This document shows positions 5,428 through 60,725 of a stretch of 64,000 nucleotides of DNA, one piece after another. Every line of letters begins with the position of its first letter. Position 1 is the first letter of the stretch. Source of the stretch: Tetradesmus obliquus (taxonomy: Eukaryota; Chlorophyta; Chlorophyceae; Sphaeropleales; Scenedesmaceae); NCBI GenBank assembly GCA_030272155.1, contig CP126199.1, positions 248,001-312,000 on the forward strand. Direction: 5' to 3'. The translations under genes were made by a program, and so were the position numbers. The notes beneath the pieces are model-generated. The model worked only from the letters and a program-made list of their open reading frames with translations. It had not been told where the DNA came from and ran no database searches.

Positions 5428-8138
5428 ATGGCGGCGTCGATGGCCCTGCTGGCGCCTGGCCAAAGCAGTTCATTCAATGCATCAAGATCTAGGAGTCTTC
5501 GCAAAGTGCCCAGCTTGCAGCGGACCGTGCGTGTCCCCGTCAACCGGGTGCCACAGATATGTGCTAGCAGTGCTGCAGCCGTCAGCCAGCCCATCGATCC
5601 ACGCAACAATAACGTAGCTCCATTACAGCGACTTTGCAAAAGCTTGCTGGTCGGAGTGGCAGCAGCAGCAACATGGTCTGTGCTGGCATCAGCAGTCTGT
5701 GGGCCCAGCGCGCCATTTGCGTCGCTAACACTCACAGCGGGCAGCGCAGAGGCCTCAGGTGGGCTTATACCAACGCACGAGCATGCATGCTGGCTTGCTG
5801 CGCAGATCCTTGTTGCATCCACCAACCCCTGCTGCGTGTACTGCACACCCTGCTGCAGGTGCATCAGTAGCAGCACAGAGTGCTTGGGCAGGCCTGGCAG
5901 CGGGTTTCCTGCACACCCTGTGTGGCCCCGACCACTTGGCAGTGAGTGCCTTGCAAGGCCTGACAGCAGCAGCCTGTCAGGGCAGCAGCAGGCTGACATG
6001 GCATGCTGACAGGGACAGCAGGGCAGATGCTGCTGAGTTGTGATTGTACAAAGCAGCACGTCAAGCAAGGGATTGCTGTAGATTGACGATTTACCCACAA
6101 TATAGCAGCACAGAAAGGCATCACAGCTGCTGTTTTGTCGCATTGTTGTGCCAGCTGTACCTGCAGGAACCGTTGCGGGCAGTGCTTGCACTGCTTGAGT
6201 AGGTGTACCTGCTGACAGCAGTCGTATGTTGCAACTCCACTGCACCTGCTATGGCCAGCAGCAGCTTTGTGAGAAAAGCACCTCCTCACTGCATCCTTCC
6301 GCTCTGCCTACTTGTCCTGCCTGCTACAATGCCTGCAGGCGCTGACGCCGCTCACCATCGGCAGGAACCGGGCAGCAGCGTCAGCGCTGGGCGCGCTGTG
6401 GGGCTTCGGCCACTCCACCGGGCAGCTCATCCTGGGACTGGTCTTCGTGGTGCTCAAGGTGAGGCGGCTTGTTGTGGGGTTGCTGCACCAGCGCAGCAGC
6501 AGCAGCAGGGCCAAAAGTGCACTTGCAGCAGCATGCCAGCATACATGGCAGCTCCATGCCAGCATACATGGCAGCTCATCCTGGGCCTGGTCTTGGTGGT
6601 GCTCAAGGTGAGGCAGCACATGCGCAGGCGGCAAGGGAGCAGCACGGCTCCAGAGGCAGTGGCGGCAGAATCGCAGCAGCGGCAGCACCAGCACCAGCAG
6701 CAGCACGACCAGCAGCAGCACCACGAGCAGCAGCAGCAGCACCACCAGCAGAGTTGCGTGCGCAGCAGTAGGCCAGCATGCACGGCAGCATCCGGCCGCC
6801 GCTGCTGAGATGTCGCAGGGCGAGACTGTGGCAGGTCTGCAGTGCCACTGCAGGTGTGGCTGAGCTACAGTGACCTGTTCACCTGCTGATGGTCACATAA
6901 TACTGATCATATGAGCGTCACACAGCACACACATTGCTGCAACTTGTACAGCAATCATTAGCATACTGCCCAGCCTACTCAGCTGCTTTATCGTCTCCTG
7001 CCACACTACAACCTCCACTGCCTGCAGGAGCGTTTCCACGACTTTGTGCCTGCGCTGTCCAAGTGGTCGGGCACTGTGGTGGGGCTCACACTGATCGCCA
7101 TCGGCTTGATGGGCATCTACGAGACCTACTTTGAGGGCGCGCACGAGGAGGAGGAGCAAGGGGAGCTCAAGCTGGCAGTGGCAGGTGCGGGCTGGCTGGT
7201 GGATGTGTGGCAGTTGTTGCACATTCCATGTGTTTGCAGCAGCGCGACAGGCTGGGTAAGCTTCAATTGACGGTGCGTGGGTCAGTGGCAGATGCGATGG
7301 TAGCAGCTGAAGCAGTGCTAGTGCAGGCGCGATTGGATGCGGGCCATGTGGCAGCGCAGGGGTGTGCAGCAAGCGCCAGGCTTTGGTTATATGGGTCATT
7401 GGGAGCTGTGTCTTTGCGCAAGTAGCTGCTGGGGCATTGCTGATGCAGCGCAGCTAGCACGCTGCCGTGGCAGCAACAGCAGCAGCTGTAGCTGTAGCTG
7501 ATGATGGTTGCGTTGGCGGCAATAACATGTAGCAGTCGCAGCTGGCGAAAAAGCAGCTACAGCAGGCAGTCGTAGACAGTGGCAGAAACTACAGCATGCC
7601 ATGCCTTGCCGTCCTGCTTCTGCAATGATATGCAGCGCTGAATGATATGCAGCGCTGAAATTGGTAGCAGCTGGCCCATCAGTCACGTCCCTCCTCTGTA
7701 TGAGCTCTACGCACCCGACCTGTCGACTGACCTTGCCGCGGCTGCTGCTCCTGCTGCTTGCCTGCAGGTGCTGATGGCAGCACAATAGCAGCCAGCAGCA
7801 GCAGCAGCAACTTCCAGCAGCAAGCCAAAGTGGGCCTGGCCACCTATGCAACAGGCATTGTGTATGGGCTGCACCCTGATGCACTTTTTGTGGTCATCCC
7901 TGCCCTGGCGCTGCCCACCAAGCTCGCAGCAATCGCCTATTGCAGCATGTTTGTGTTTGGTACAGTGGCAGCAATGGGTGGCTACACGCTTGTGATTGGT
8001 ACCACCTCAGCAGCGCTTACTAAGGAGCGGCCGTGGCTGCAGGCGCACCTGTCGACGATTGCATCGGGTATTGCTATTGTGGTGGGTGTGCTGATCTTGC
8101 TGTCTGGGGCAGGCATGGCAGTACCGCTGTTTGGTTGA
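5428..8138 (+). CDS. Chloroplast-targeted UreH/NicO-type (Ni/Co transporter-like) membrane protein
   Basis: Exons 5428-5758, 5859-5941, 6339-6458, 7028-7184 and 7768-8138; phases 1,0,0,1 close to 353 aa. The first ~55 residues are Ser/Arg/Ala-rich without acidic residues, as in a chloroplast transit peptide; in-frame stops precede the ATG. Exon 2 holds the metal-site signature HTLCGPDH (H-x5-DH) and exon 5 a second half-site GLHPD, separated by hydrophobic segments. The order matches the plant high-affinity nickel-transport family (Arabidopsis At2g16800/At4g35080 type), placed in the plastid envelope or thylakoid. The transported ion is not proven by sequence. A Glu-rich loop (HEEEEQGE) and a Ser run lie between the two halves. 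The intron after exon 3 holds a second copy of the exon-3 end (separate entry). Confidence 0.88.
6570..6616 (+). repeat. Copy of exon-3 end plus donor inside intron 3 of the metal carrier
   Basis: This stretch repeats 6421-6467 (exon 3 end, GTGAG donor and first intron bases) with only three or four substitutions, 149 bp downstream. It still reads QLILGLVLVVLK and is followed by a GTGAG donor, but has no acceptor of its own. A shorter tandem repeat of about 27 bp (catacatggcagct core) lies just before it. Confidence 0.85.
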
Positions 8139-59100: not shown

Positions 59101-60725
59101 GTGCACTGTTGCCGCACTCATTGACACTAAGCTGTTGTCAAGGCGGGCAGCAGTCATGCGTAGAATGAGATGCTGCATGTCACTTGTGCGCTGCTTTGTG
59201 CACCTCACTTCACCAGCAGCTCATCATATGGTGGTGAGCCTGCCACATCGTCACCGCCAGCAAGGCAGAAAAAACAATGTTTACTGCTTCCTGCTGCCAG
59301 CAGAGGGGCCAAATATGTTGTTCTGCCGACCACCCTTGCCACAAGTACTACCAGATGCTCTGTTGCCTTGTTGTCCAGGCGTTTTGCTGGCGCCTGGCTG
59401 CCTGTGGGGCGCTCACCGTACTTGATGAGCAGTATGGTGGCCATGGGGTACACCGCCATGCTGCTGGCCACCAGAGCACTGACATCAAAGCTGACCAGGA
59501 ACAGCGTCAGCAGGCTCAGCTGGGGCAGCAGCAGACCAGCCATCAGGTGGTGAAGCAGTGCAGCACAGCAGCAACAAAACAGTCAGGACAATCGTCAAAG
59601 CTGACAGCGTCAGCAGGCTCAGCTGCGCGGCAGCAGCAGCAGAGCCACGAGGCAGTGCAGCCTGCACTGCTGTGCTGAGCACAGCAGCAGAGGGGGCACA
59701 AGGCGAGATGCAGCGCAGCACAGCAGCAGTGACGCAGTGCACACCAGGAAGCAAGCAGGTCACAGTGTGGTGCATGCGACGCGGTGGACATGGGCAGTTG
59801 ATGGGGCGGCACATGGCTGCGGTGATCAGTGCAGGCGGCGTCCAGCACCAAAGAGCGTGTTGATGCTCTTCAAGATATGTGCATGCTGGTGCTGTGTGTT
59901 GCCACCCTAAACATGGCAGCTGGCTGACTTTGCTGCTGCTGCTTCTGATGATGCTGCTGGGCTCACCATTCTGCAGAGCAGGCCCAGCGGCCACAGCATG
60001 ACTGTCAGCAGCACATAGTGACACAGCGCTGTGATGACCACCGTCTTGGAGGTCCTGCAGGCAGGGCATAGCACAGCAAACATGATTCAGTAGGCAAAAG
60101 CGCTGCTGACGTATGGCCAGATACACAACCGCCAAAAGGCAAGAGGTGAGGCTGATCAACTCATGAAGCTGCGATAACAGAATGTGCATGTTGTCGGTCA
60201 GCAACATTTCAGCTCAGCCGCACTGATGTGGCCTGATACCTGGTGCAGCTTGAACTCAACAAGCGAACTGTGAATGAAATTTGCTGGCAGGATGTCTGTG
60301 CTGTTGCTGCCGGGGATGCAGTGCAGTGCCGTGCTGAGCACATGCTGTGCTGCTAAGCAGTAGGGCAGCTGGCCCATATTAATCTGAGTCTCACTTCTTC
60401 ACTATGCTTATCACCACAGGACTGCTGCATGCCTGCACCAAAACAAGGGAGATTTGGCGATAGTGCTGTTGGGCGCAAGTGAATGTGTAAGCAGTACATG
60501 CAGCAGTTGCTGAGTCACGTGTGCACTTCACGCTGCAGTGCCTGCTCTGCTCACGTGAAGGAAGGCGTACAGAGCCAGGTAAGCTCCAGCCAGGCAGTTT
60601 GCTACAGCGTCTGTGAAGCTTTCGTACAGCAGCGAGCTGTCAATGCCTAGGTCCCCATCTCCTGGGCTGCTGCTGCTGTAGCTAGCACCTCGGGTGCTTG
60701 GCTGTTGTGCCGCTGCTGCAGCCAT
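56150..60725 (-). CDS. Multi-pass membrane protein, family not recognised
   Basis: Secure minus-strand exons: 59967-60054, 59417-59519, 58815-58905, 58517-58592, 57710-57790, 57325-57438, 56596-56687, 56150-56321 (phases close, 271 aa). A first exon 60555-60725 (ATG, MAAAAAQQ, then a helix ANCLAGAYLALYAFL) is likely. One exon linking it is not resolved; a candidate lies around 60240-60350. Hydrophobic segments: ITALCHYVLLTVMLWPLGLL, LSLLTLFLVSFDVSALV, MLMLMLVGLLL, VAAALLSVAAALG, and YFLLPTALM to FPAAALGA. Soluble parts include RSSMDECFASTLEQLNPKY and a basic RCVPRDKRSAFVRR. I do not recognise the family. A MITE fills most of the 58516-57791 intron, and an exon-start copy lies at 59592-59632. 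Confidence 0.6.
57022..57097. repeat. 9-bp tandem array (ctgcatcag / ctgcacgag), about eight units
   Basis: In an intron of the membrane-protein gene. The minus strand would read QLVQLMQ repeats but lacks a donor in that frame, so I treat it as intronic. Confidence 0.85.
57941..58467. mobile_element. Non-autonomous hAT-like MITE (527 bp) with 8-bp target-site duplication
   Basis: Termini are TAGGGATGT and ACATCCCTA (inverted repeats, with weaker similarity continuing inward). The flanks are identical 8-bp copies ctcatgca at 57933-57940 and 58468-58475. The interior is AT-rich, full of tatacg/gtata words, and has no transposase. An 8-bp duplication and TAGGG-type ends are hAT hallmarks. It sits in an intron between minus-strand exons 57710-57790 and 58517-58592. 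Confidence 0.93.
59592..59632 (-). repeat. Copy of a membrane-protein exon start plus acceptor
   Basis: Repeats LSLLTL from the exon start at 59480-59519 with a gcgcag acceptor, then continues with a deletion and divergence, ~110 bp upstream in transcript sense. Confidence 0.8.

Follow-up and report, generated by a model that had tools for sequence, protein, structure and literature searches.

Introns of Tetradesmus obliquus, and in two instances the sequence past a stop codon, bear direct copies of the coding end that adjoins them, and we consider it probable that these copies stem from repeated duplication events of short range, offset by roughly 100-150 bp and followed by decay of the exon copy in one lineage and of the intron copy in both, with an added step for copies of short homology. 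Our results suggest that introns grow longer by short duplications of local sequence, with false splice sites as a remnant.

The window, a stretch of 64,000 nucleotides from contig CP126199.1, was compared with itself for repeat pairs up to 4 kb apart. A second self-comparison covered the window and 20 further stretches of the same genome (21 stretches, 264 kb), with a limit of 1.5 kb and triplet runs discounted. GPKOW, LTA4H, RPL17 and ERGIC3 were identified by searches, while the names metal (NicO-like) carrier and amidohydrolase are readings of the translation. Gene models beyond the checked genes come from a purpose-made, unvalidated gene finder. The exon chains modelled for the checked genes are partly wrong (GPKOW 19555-19605 and 18833-18891; RPL17 past 41009; very short LTA4H exons; ERGIC3 without some exons). 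The gene finder called decoy exons in GPKOW and LTA4H.

Direct local repeats are abundant and closely spaced

With the 1.5-kb limit, the 264 kb hold 163 direct and 5 inverted local pairs, and at least one direct pair occurs in 16 of the 21 stretches. The window alone yields 25 direct and 4 inverted pairs up to 4 kb apart, or 25 and 2 when the 1.5-kb limit is applied and triplet runs are discounted. Across the window and the 20 loci, 12-mer seeds at most 500 bp apart number 12,441 direct versus 225 inverted, long arrays counted in, which excludes a chance origin of the copies. The pairs group into 80 clusters with a median primary spacing of 134.5 bp, which falls within 79-166 bp in 59 clusters and within 95-160 bp in 53, 24 of these 53 lying at 110-129 bp; the spacing is at least 223 bp in 18 clusters, with a minor mode near 240.

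Pair identities range from 68 to 100%, and the decay includes frameshift gaps (35 in 73 comparisons) and one stop, which bears out the first-pass annotation's description of copies in every stage of decay. Arrays reach about six copies or more. Some copies form (XY)nX arrays, and copy X and spacer Y are similar to the same degree in recent arrays, which is as unequal exchange or slippage predicts. The spacers of some arrays are equal in length yet no longer alignable.

The offset of 95-160 bp is close to short-read length and the copies are known from one assembly, as would fit an assembly or haplotype artefact. However, the spread of identities and the long arrays argue against this origin, and clusters wholly within good exons are rarer than random placement gives (9 versus 15.1±2.8 for 64 clusters, frames not checked singly), as selection predicts and an artefact does not. 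Genome searches with copies or spacers from six loci returned only the query's own place in five, and the sixth matched a gene family and is useless for dating, so that a transposon or paralog was rejected as the source of the spacers. An artefact, or a transposable element or introner that carries the copies, is therefore exceedingly improbable.

Detectable local repeats occur in 42 of the 212 sampled introns, and most of these include a copy of coding sequence. Median intron length is 610 bp with repeats (n=42) versus 251 bp without (n=170), a contrast that is confounded because long introns offer more room for repeats. A published table (PMC5966456) gives a mean intron of 462 bp for T. obliquus and means of 230-302 bp for four further green algae, a contrast that fits intron growth.

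Copies in the window lie in five genes

Direct pairs in the window are confined to the metal (NicO-like) carrier, the amidohydrolase, GPKOW, the LTA4H-type M1 aminopeptidase and RPL17, and about 15 borders have a copy: six in GPKOW (one below threshold), five in LTA4H, two in RPL17 and one each in the carrier and the amidohydrolase (Table 1). The first-pass annotation had named seven of twelve genes; border copies are real, but only in these five, and no direct pair was detected, at either of two sensitivities, in the "membrane protein" stretch near 56-60.8 kb. Self-comparison found no direct pair in the kinase stretch (1-5.4 kb), and none of the 15 scorable borders of ERGIC3 has a copy. For the GPKOW copy on the donor side of exon 18472-18678, protein-level similarity runs to the exon end and the border window scores 35, with a threshold of 38.

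Table 1. Exon borders of the window and their copies (positions within the window)
Position	Strand	Gene	Feature	Identity or basis
6421..6468	+	metal (NicO-like) carrier	real exon end (to 6458) and 10 bp of donor	93.8% identity to 6570-6617
6570..6617	+	metal carrier	intronic decoy of exon end and donor	spacer 6469-6569 single in genome
15781..15835	+	amidohydrolase	decoy acceptor and exon start	90.9% identity to 15927-15981
15927..15981	+	amidohydrolase	real acceptor and exon start	self-comparison
18301..18374	-	GPKOW	degenerate copy of exon 18472-18678 in downstream intron (donor side)	93.2% identity to 18545-18618
18472..18678	-	GPKOW	real exon GDKPKQDLVAAP...	relative's protein P0242
18751..19108	-	GPKOW	three decoys of acceptor and exon start at 18678	self-comparison
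19414..19455	-	GPKOW	real acceptor (19448) and exon start LVEPKQTIRRPD	searches, exon model
19571..19612	-	GPKOW	42-bp exact decoy, flanks unrelated	locus single in genome
19840..19926	-	GPKOW	decoy of exon end ...GLGWADGQGVGRKRQ (real donor 20007)	protein-level similarity, border window
20007..20099	-	GPKOW	real exon DYESMPVEEF...GRKRQ	P0242, exon model
20176..20396	-	GPKOW	two decoys of acceptor and exon start at 20099	self-comparison, protein level
20593..20834	-	GPKOW	decoys of exon end ...LRDDLEALPDEATVE (real donor 20980)	self-comparison, protein level, border windows
20909..21090	-	GPKOW	real exon end (donor 20980) and adjacent intron	self-comparison, exon model
32891..33113	-	LTA4H	acceptor 32907 and upstream decoy (33003-33113)	self-comparison, border window
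33783..33876	-	LTA4H	real acceptor side and exon start	self-comparison, border window
33882..33977	-	LTA4H	decoy, a full tandem duplication of period 99	90.6% identity
34232..34486	-	LTA4H	three decoys of exon end ...FLYYLQ (real donor 34549)	one with in-frame stop
34547..34602	-	LTA4H	real exon end FLYYLQ and first 2 bp of donor	search, protein level
34664..34734	-	LTA4H	real exon start (acceptor 34734)	search, protein level
34799..35049	-	LTA4H	two decoys of acceptor 34734 and exon start	self-comparison, protein level
35745..36229	-	LTA4H	array of four decoys of exon end ...TNVVAHE and donor, period about 106-115	self-comparison
36230..36281	-	LTA4H	real exon end TNVVAHE (donor 36238)	search, exon model
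38540..39051	-	LTA4H, 5' part of gene	direct duplication of period about 262, assigned to a border with uncertainty	self-comparison
41978..42183	+	RPL17	decoys of acceptor and exon start	self-comparison, by eye
42211..42299	+	RPL17	real acceptor and exon start	by eye, coding reads on
42405..42423	+	RPL17	real exon end APVKGEQ, donor 42423	gene model
42484..42601	+	RPL17	copy in tandem at period 79, with CT in place of donor GT	self-comparison

Protein comparisons for GPKOW, LTA4H and ERGIC3 reveal exon use only, and the proteins of close relatives skip all copies checked (GPKOW and part of LTA4H). These comparisons bear on whether the copies are functional, either as alternative ends or as decoy splice sites retained to tune splicing. 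By eye, GT is kept in roughly four of five decoy donors, the decoys of locus L014 retain a codon-position bias, and a relative's LTA4H protein (P0202) changes sequence directly past FLYYLQ, a copied border, all of which would be consistent with use. However, the GT retention is about what neutral decay leaves at these identities, and the offsets are not multiples of three (spacing modulo 3 is flat, 28/26/26 for the 80 clusters). Together with the frameshift gaps, the in-frame stop in an LTA4H decoy and the skipping by relatives, this makes a function very unlikely.

Clusters touch exon borders more often than random placement gives

At the level of clusters, 42 of 64 touch borders versus 28.4±3.4 under random placement, and 0 of 300 trials were as high; cluster placement thus favours borders. 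Clusters without a good exon are rarer than random (13 versus 20.5±3.7 for the 64). A looser count places good-exon borders at 51 of the 80 clusters; a circular shift at pair level gave 108 of 138 versus 0.61±0.05, a figure drawn from dependent pairs and rough models and superseded by the cluster-level test. The real border lies on the outer side, in support of the first-pass interpretation: of 53 donor rows, 50 have the live site in the 5' copy, and of 33 acceptor rows, 30 have it in the 3' copy, although rows are not independent.

The prediction that junction-crossing repeats are more frequent than repeats elsewhere in introns failed, an outcome that the first-pass annotation had named as one that would refute it. 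Per-base repeat coverage has no peak at junctions and is flat across them and into introns, and in three curated genes copies occur in 9 of the 38 windows at junctions and in 34 of the 127 within introns; the exons of these genes were picked by hand, with RPL17 excluded. A junction profile that demanded clean exons on both sides contained almost no repeats; it is biased because decoy exons adjoin repeats, and the flat-coverage profile replaced it. Nor are all copies bound to splice sites, as had been assumed, since in two cases outside the window (L007 and L014) the end of the coding sequence, stop codon included, is copied beyond the stop.

Full-length and border-limited copies

In one class of copies, here termed full, homology extends into the intron and decay has a neutral appearance, both of which are expected from tandem duplication across a border. 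In the short class, homology ends at the splice consensus or, twice, at the stop codon, and the flanks are mostly unrelated. The claim that copies are always joined to a splice site and some intron needs modification, since many pairs have only 0-10 bp of splice consensus in common.

Single pairs of at least 88% identity comprise 19 short and 1 full. Two simulations of border-spanning duplication and decay yielded 10 of 42 and 12 of 28 short for such pairs, and the observed 19:1 differs from the simulated 10:32 and 12:16 (Fisher P 1.4e-7 and 1.8e-4). Multi-copy clusters of at least 88% identity comprise 1 short and 5 full. Singles below 88% (13 full, 9 short) resemble the simulations, and clusters with a period below 400 bp at all identities show a small excess, with 39 of 76 short versus simulated 46 of 124 and 26 of 58. 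The short-class excess could be due in part to an age distribution poor in young events.

The flanks were also examined. No homolog (z over 5) lies within 700 bp for 30 of 43 spacers, in a test that detects 80-100% of sequences down to 70% identity, and identical bases number 42/42, 54/55 and 43/45 in copies with unrelated flanks. Intron homology stays collinear at L013 (5475/5615). The residual intron-side homology expected of a tandem copy is weak, with a mean z of 0.48±0.28 at donors (n=24, P 0.09) and 0.53±0.26 at acceptors (n=15, P 0.05) and controls near 0. Fast intron decay may explain absent flank homology in part of the cases; two results, the equal similarity of X and spacers in recent arrays and the outcome of the simulations, led us not to accept it as the sole reason.

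These data allow an assessment of random tandem duplications across exon-intron borders, in which exon end, splice site and intron are copied together and then decay neutrally, with no further process. Such events account for the low-identity singles, for the collinear intron at L013, for the equal-length unalignable spacers and for the faster change of introns described below. However, they do not readily account for the 19:1 ratio (an argument that weakens if young events are scarce), for the spacers without homolog, for near-identical copies in unrelated flanks, or for the border share of 42 of 55 non-exonic clusters versus 0.57-0.60 simulated. It is unlikely that they suffice alone. The proposal that border-spanning tandem duplication lengthens introns thus survives in part: the copies are direct and local and introns with repeats are longer (the confounded contrast above), but the high-identity singles depart from it.

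Divergence and coding constraint

Across 27 borders with at least 25 bp of alignable intron, divergence is 0.058, 0.060 and 0.179 at codon positions 1, 2 and 3 and 0.117 in the intron; one row (L007 2026) is self-aligned and to be discounted, and by subtraction the values become about 0.065, 0.066, 0.20 and 0.122. At borders whose homology enters the intron, the intron has diverged about twice as much as codon positions 1-2, which is the pattern expected with one exon copy constrained and the other dead. Gap openings per kb number 35 in introns and 11 in exons at alignable borders. Live and dead copies differ by an excess at third positions (ratio 2.98, CI 2.16-4.13, 45 borders), and decoy-decoy differences have little codon-position bias except in L014. 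The case for coding constraint on the copies from this excess is weakened, since decoy-decoy differences are unbiased and, in the alignable class, divergence at third positions is higher than in introns as well, so that the excess may be mutational.

We also weighed exchange or repair between homologous chromosomes, of strains or sibling species, whose exons are alignable and whose introns are not, such that DNA synthesised across an exon end of one homolog ends up attached within the intron of the other. Only coding sequence and splice consensus would then show homology, and events confined to introns would be traceless. Consistent with this, homology ends at coding edges, two stop codons included, intron flanks are unrelated at 90-100% exon identity, live and dead copies differ at third positions, and clusters without a good exon are scarce. 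However, the third-position excess over introns means that the cause may be mutational, some X copies are 100% identical (42, 54 and 38 bp), and the process demands common mating between strongly diverged homologs. We regard it as quite unlikely.

A proposed mechanism

In the explanation that we prefer, recurrent short-range duplication, a replication or repair step would re-copy roughly 120 bp backwards, and selection would purge events that break exons, leaving survivors in introns or across a border. Thereafter constraint would differ, the exon copy being free to decay in only one of the two lineages. Plain duplication and decay does not yield the high-identity short class, and therefore an extra step is needed for it: the copied segment may itself be short, or the exon end may be joined to different intron sequence by template switching or by repair from a homolog with a diverged intron. 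There is also some chance, although a small one, that the copying product is limited by the coding boundary, with exon ends and core splice consensus, or coding-sequence ends and stop, repeatedly re-copied roughly 100-150 bp away into the noncoding DNA next to them, possibly through repair between homologs with unalignable introns. Coding ends would then be seeds of intron and UTR growth.

Intron growth is usually inferred from transposons. Here, the offset of mostly 95-160 bp provides a measurable fingerprint of a duplication mechanism, and the series of dead splice sites beside live ones lends itself to natural tests of how a splice site is chosen from near-identical competitors. In genomes of this kind, gene prediction is prone to calling decoy exons.

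Comparison with known systems

Introners are dispersed multicopy elements that cause mass intron change, in algae among others; unlike introners and transposable elements, the copies here are local and single-locus (five of six loci searched; the sixth matched a family of coding genes). Functional tandem (mutually exclusive) exons differ from these copies, which have frameshifts and a stop and are skipped in P0242, with L014 as a possible exception. The human IFI6 gene reportedly has a minisatellite over a splice donor; it resembles our arrays in that each repeat bears a donor, and differs in being one locus with short units. A Drosophila study (PMC2891723) is said to describe novel introns formed by sliding or tandem duplication, at novel intron positions and not as border copies within introns; it is alike in that tandem duplication alters intron structure.

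In the Rogers model as outlined in PMC3443670, an exonic AGGT segment is duplicated to give a new intron. The outlined model and our copies have in common that a short tandem duplication in a gene doubles a splice site and that the protein is kept as one copy is spliced out; a direct tandem copy of a gene segment is present here as well (163 direct versus 5 inverted, with adjacent full units in part of the set). In contrast to that outline, an existing border is copied here rather than an exonic AGGT (cases read by eye), and an existing intron is lengthened. In the potato RdRp gene, as summarised in PMC4974935, a single tandem duplication across an intron-exon boundary (intron end and exon start) created a new intron. 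The duplicated unit there holds exon and adjoining intron, as at our 27 borders with at least 25 bp of alignable intron, one an artefact. Unlike that single case, we find 80 clusters in 264 kb, about half at good-exon borders, and high-identity single pairs that lack whole-unit homology (19 short, 1 full; multi-copy 1 short, 5 full). Frequent duplications inside genes were noted in earlier work cited in PMC3443670 and PMC4974935, and our data are alike in this respect, as judged through those citing papers only. Taken together, single border-crossing duplications were already known, and what is new here is their density, their tight spacing and perhaps the border-limited copies.

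Sample and gene models

Our survey covered one assembly (104.66 Mb in 17 contigs of 3.05-11.1 Mb), 264 kb of 105 Mb, with gene models predicted within this analysis; the GC content of the window is 57%. A gene finder trained on the window and 20 stretches of 10 kb (469 introns) yielded a splice consensus with donors near CAG^GTG and acceptors near TGCAG^ (^, exon border), and it recovered the expected genes, yet it also called decoy exons. CAG/CTG triplet runs are very common across the window and coincide with the CAG of both consensus sequences. Protein searches found relatives that put the genome close to Scenedesmus/Tetradesmus. 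Exon use of GPKOW, LTA4H and ERGIC3 was compared with the proteins of relatives, and RPL17, LTA4H and GPKOW were additionally compared with solved structures. The relative's GPKOW protein P0242 (422 aa) is 97% identical over 74% of the query and is probably derived from RNA, since its source contigs extend up to 1,386 bp; proteins of Scenedesmus sp. NREL 46B-D3 are 85% (ERGIC3) and 78% (GPKOW) identical. For the remaining genes, we defined a good exon as one with 45 bp or more of coding-like sequence not covered by a repeat, which is a filter and not proof.

Abundance and anatomy of local repeats

Local repeat pairs were predominantly direct, with 25 direct versus 2 inverted pairs in the window and 138 versus 3 in the other 20 stretches, 15 of which contained at least one direct pair. 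Across the whole sample, 12-bp seeds at most 500 bp apart numbered 12,441 in direct and 225 in inverted orientation. Merging pairs that aligned over at most 600 bp and were spaced by no more than 800 bp resulted in 80 clusters in 264 kb, which scales to approximately 30,000 clusters genome-wide by arithmetic rather than by count. Spacing fell at 95-160 bp in 53 of the 80 clusters (24 of these at 110-129 bp; overall median 134.5 bp) and at 223 bp or more in 18, with a small mode near 240 bp; modulo 3, spacings were distributed 28/26/26. Arrays take the form (XY)nX, where X is the copied segment and Y the spacer, and the longest array that we read closely has six X copies. In recent arrays X and Y are equally similar, which is a prediction of unequal exchange. 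The border in use (live) is the 5' copy in 50/53 donor rows; for acceptors it is the 3' copy, in 30/33 rows. The rows are not independent. Selection to keep the exon intact would require this outer position.

Repeat features of the window and of sampled loci outside it (L handles)
Sequence	Positions	Strand	Observation
Window	19456-19476		Poly-G run of ~21 nt (poly-C in the coding orientation) immediately upstream of a GPKOW acceptor
Window	49059-49135		Palindromic inverted repeat, 77 bp, 83%; with the next, the sole local inverted pairs in the window apart from CAG/CTG runs
Window	50861-51010		Palindromic inverted repeat, ~150 bp, 76%
L007	5402-5589		Copies of the CDS end including the stop codon, positioned after the stop
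L014	860	minus	Six exon-start copies; decoys differ mainly at third codon positions, unlike other arrays
L014	7925-8152		Copies of the CDS end including the stop codon, positioned after the stop; second copy in the same frame with no intervening stop
L018	1-6039		Arrays with a unit length of ~275-350 bp and a higher-order repeat of 1.4 kb, at 84-97% identity; the gene finder called a small gene, repeated
L019	574-5863		Apparent large recent tandem duplication; ORFs of identical length recur at 4.28 kb
L021	4889-7684		Apparent large recent tandem duplication; 1.4 kb at 100% identity

Association with splice borders

The first-pass annotation had reported degenerate copies of exon borders within the introns or UTRs of seven of the twelve genes of the window. 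Such copies are present at about 15 borders, in five genes rather than seven. The evidence for their association with borders is mixed, with placement arguing for it and per-base coverage against it. A copy crossed the border of a good exon in 42 of 64 in-gene clusters versus 28.4±3.4 for random placement, and none of 300 random placements of the same clusters reached 42. The other 22 clusters comprised 13 without a good exon, where 20.5±3.7 were expected, and 9 inside exons, where the expectation was 15.1±2.8; 16 further clusters lay outside predicted genes. Among young single pairs, 11 of 20 were at borders versus 4.5±1.7 expected. In contrast, per-base coverage at 212 donors and 212 acceptors showed no peak at the junction, which was spanned in 16/212 and 13/212 cases, similar to the 16/177 and 13/177 found 100 bp into the intron; coverage 60 bp into the exon was 6/197 on the donor side and 11/198 on the acceptor side. 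In three curated genes, local copies occurred in 9/38 junction, 34/127 intron and 2/28 exon-interior windows, a count that omits 103 low-complexity windows, including two junction windows that would otherwise have passed. The expectation that repeats would be more frequent at junctions than elsewhere in introns was not borne out by local density, although cluster placement favours borders. These results are compatible if most clusters hold one border copy and the remainder fills the intron. Introns with repeats had a median length of 610 bp (n=42) versus 251 bp for those without (n=170), and longer introns offer more room.

GPKOW is the clearest case of border copies. In P0242, the exons follow one another as ...EATVE^DYESMPVEEF...GRKRQ^LVEPKQTIRRPD...^GDKPKQDLVAAP..., and an intron copy was found at threshold for five of eight tested borders (one in a window flagged as low-complexity) and slightly under threshold for a sixth; two borders had none. 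Four extra copies accompany the LTA4H exon end TNVVAHE^GT, and one FLYYLQ decoy of this gene contains an in-frame stop. The relative's LTA4H protein P0202, which is transcript-derived, turns to unrelated sequence right after FLYYLQ, a border with three decoys in the window; this switch is perhaps intron retention in a relative. Border copies were found at none of 15 scorable borders of ERGIC3, which is located between these genes.

Copies with homology into the intron

In the full class, homology is continuous from exon into intron. Pooled over 27 borders, divergence between live and dead copies was 0.058/0.060/0.179 at codon positions 1-3 and 0.117 in the intron, and gaps opened 11 times per kb in exons versus 35 times per kb in introns; one of the 27 rows aligned to itself, and without its sites the divergence is approximately 0.065/0.066/0.20 and 0.122. 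If one copy decays neutrally, intron divergence is expected to be about twice that of positions 1 and 2, as found here.

The copies are probably not alive. Frameshift gaps numbered 35 in 73 comparisons, and differences among decoys were nearly even by codon position (58/50/64, summed over rows, with L014 left out). The third-position excess between live and dead copies had a ratio of 2.98 (CI 2.16-4.13; 45 borders). This excess could be taken as a sign of former coding in a diverged homolog, but in the alignable class third positions exceed introns too, and therefore faster mutation there suffices. The L014 copies at 860 may be genuine tandem exons.

Copies with homology stopping at the border

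In the short class, homology stops near the splice site, in many cases no more than 0-10 bp away, and the exon part is 88-100% identical. Homology ended at the stop codon in two copies, L007 5402/5515 and L014 7925/8090. The second L014 copy could alternatively be a terminal exon joined by splicing; an alternative C-terminus would result from readthrough or from an optional intron.

Among 34 short pairs of at least 90% identity, flanks matched at z >5 in 2 and z >3.5 in 9. Matched flanks, on the side expected from tandem duplication, outscored mismatched flanks only slightly (mean z 0.48±0.28 and 0.53±0.26). In a wider search, using a homology test whose detection rate is 80-100% for sequences as diverged as 70% identity, we found spacer matches of z >5 within 700 bp for 13/43 spacers, including 4/20 single pairs; of the four single-pair matches, two were CAG/CTG-rich and two were ~30 bp and non-collinear. 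A match at L013 5475/5615 (z 4.8) is collinear.

Simulated border-spanning duplication followed by decay gave short copies in 10/42 cases at 88% identity or above, or 12/28 with many indels. The observed single clusters in this range were 19 short and 1 full (P 1.4e-7 and 1.8e-4 versus the simulations, Fisher test), and all clusters were 20 short and 6 full (P 3.6e-5 and 0.014). Weighing against a distinct short class, single clusters below 88% (9 short, 13 full) resembled the simulations, and for all clusters with a period below 400 bp, 39/76 were short versus 46/124 and 26/58 in the simulated sets. Should young events be scarce, part of the short pairs of high identity may be old full copies that happened to survive well, a reading by which near-identical copies with unrelated flanks (42/42, 54/55 and 43/45 bases identical) are hard to explain.

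Mechanism and known systems

Tandem duplication across exon-intron borders, as first proposed for the window, accounts for the full class, but the short class requires something further. We lean toward a mechanism in which short-range re-copying would recur at an offset of roughly 100-150 bp, selection would filter the re-copied products and arrays would expand through unequal exchange; for the short class, copying would end at the coding boundary, or one exon end would be joined to two different introns. Judged by title and abstract opening, none of the matches listed from the open-licence literature describes border copies of this density. Tandem duplication is an established source of introns (PMC3443670), and for one potato gene a duplication crossing an intron-exon border is described, by which a new intron was made (PMC4974935).
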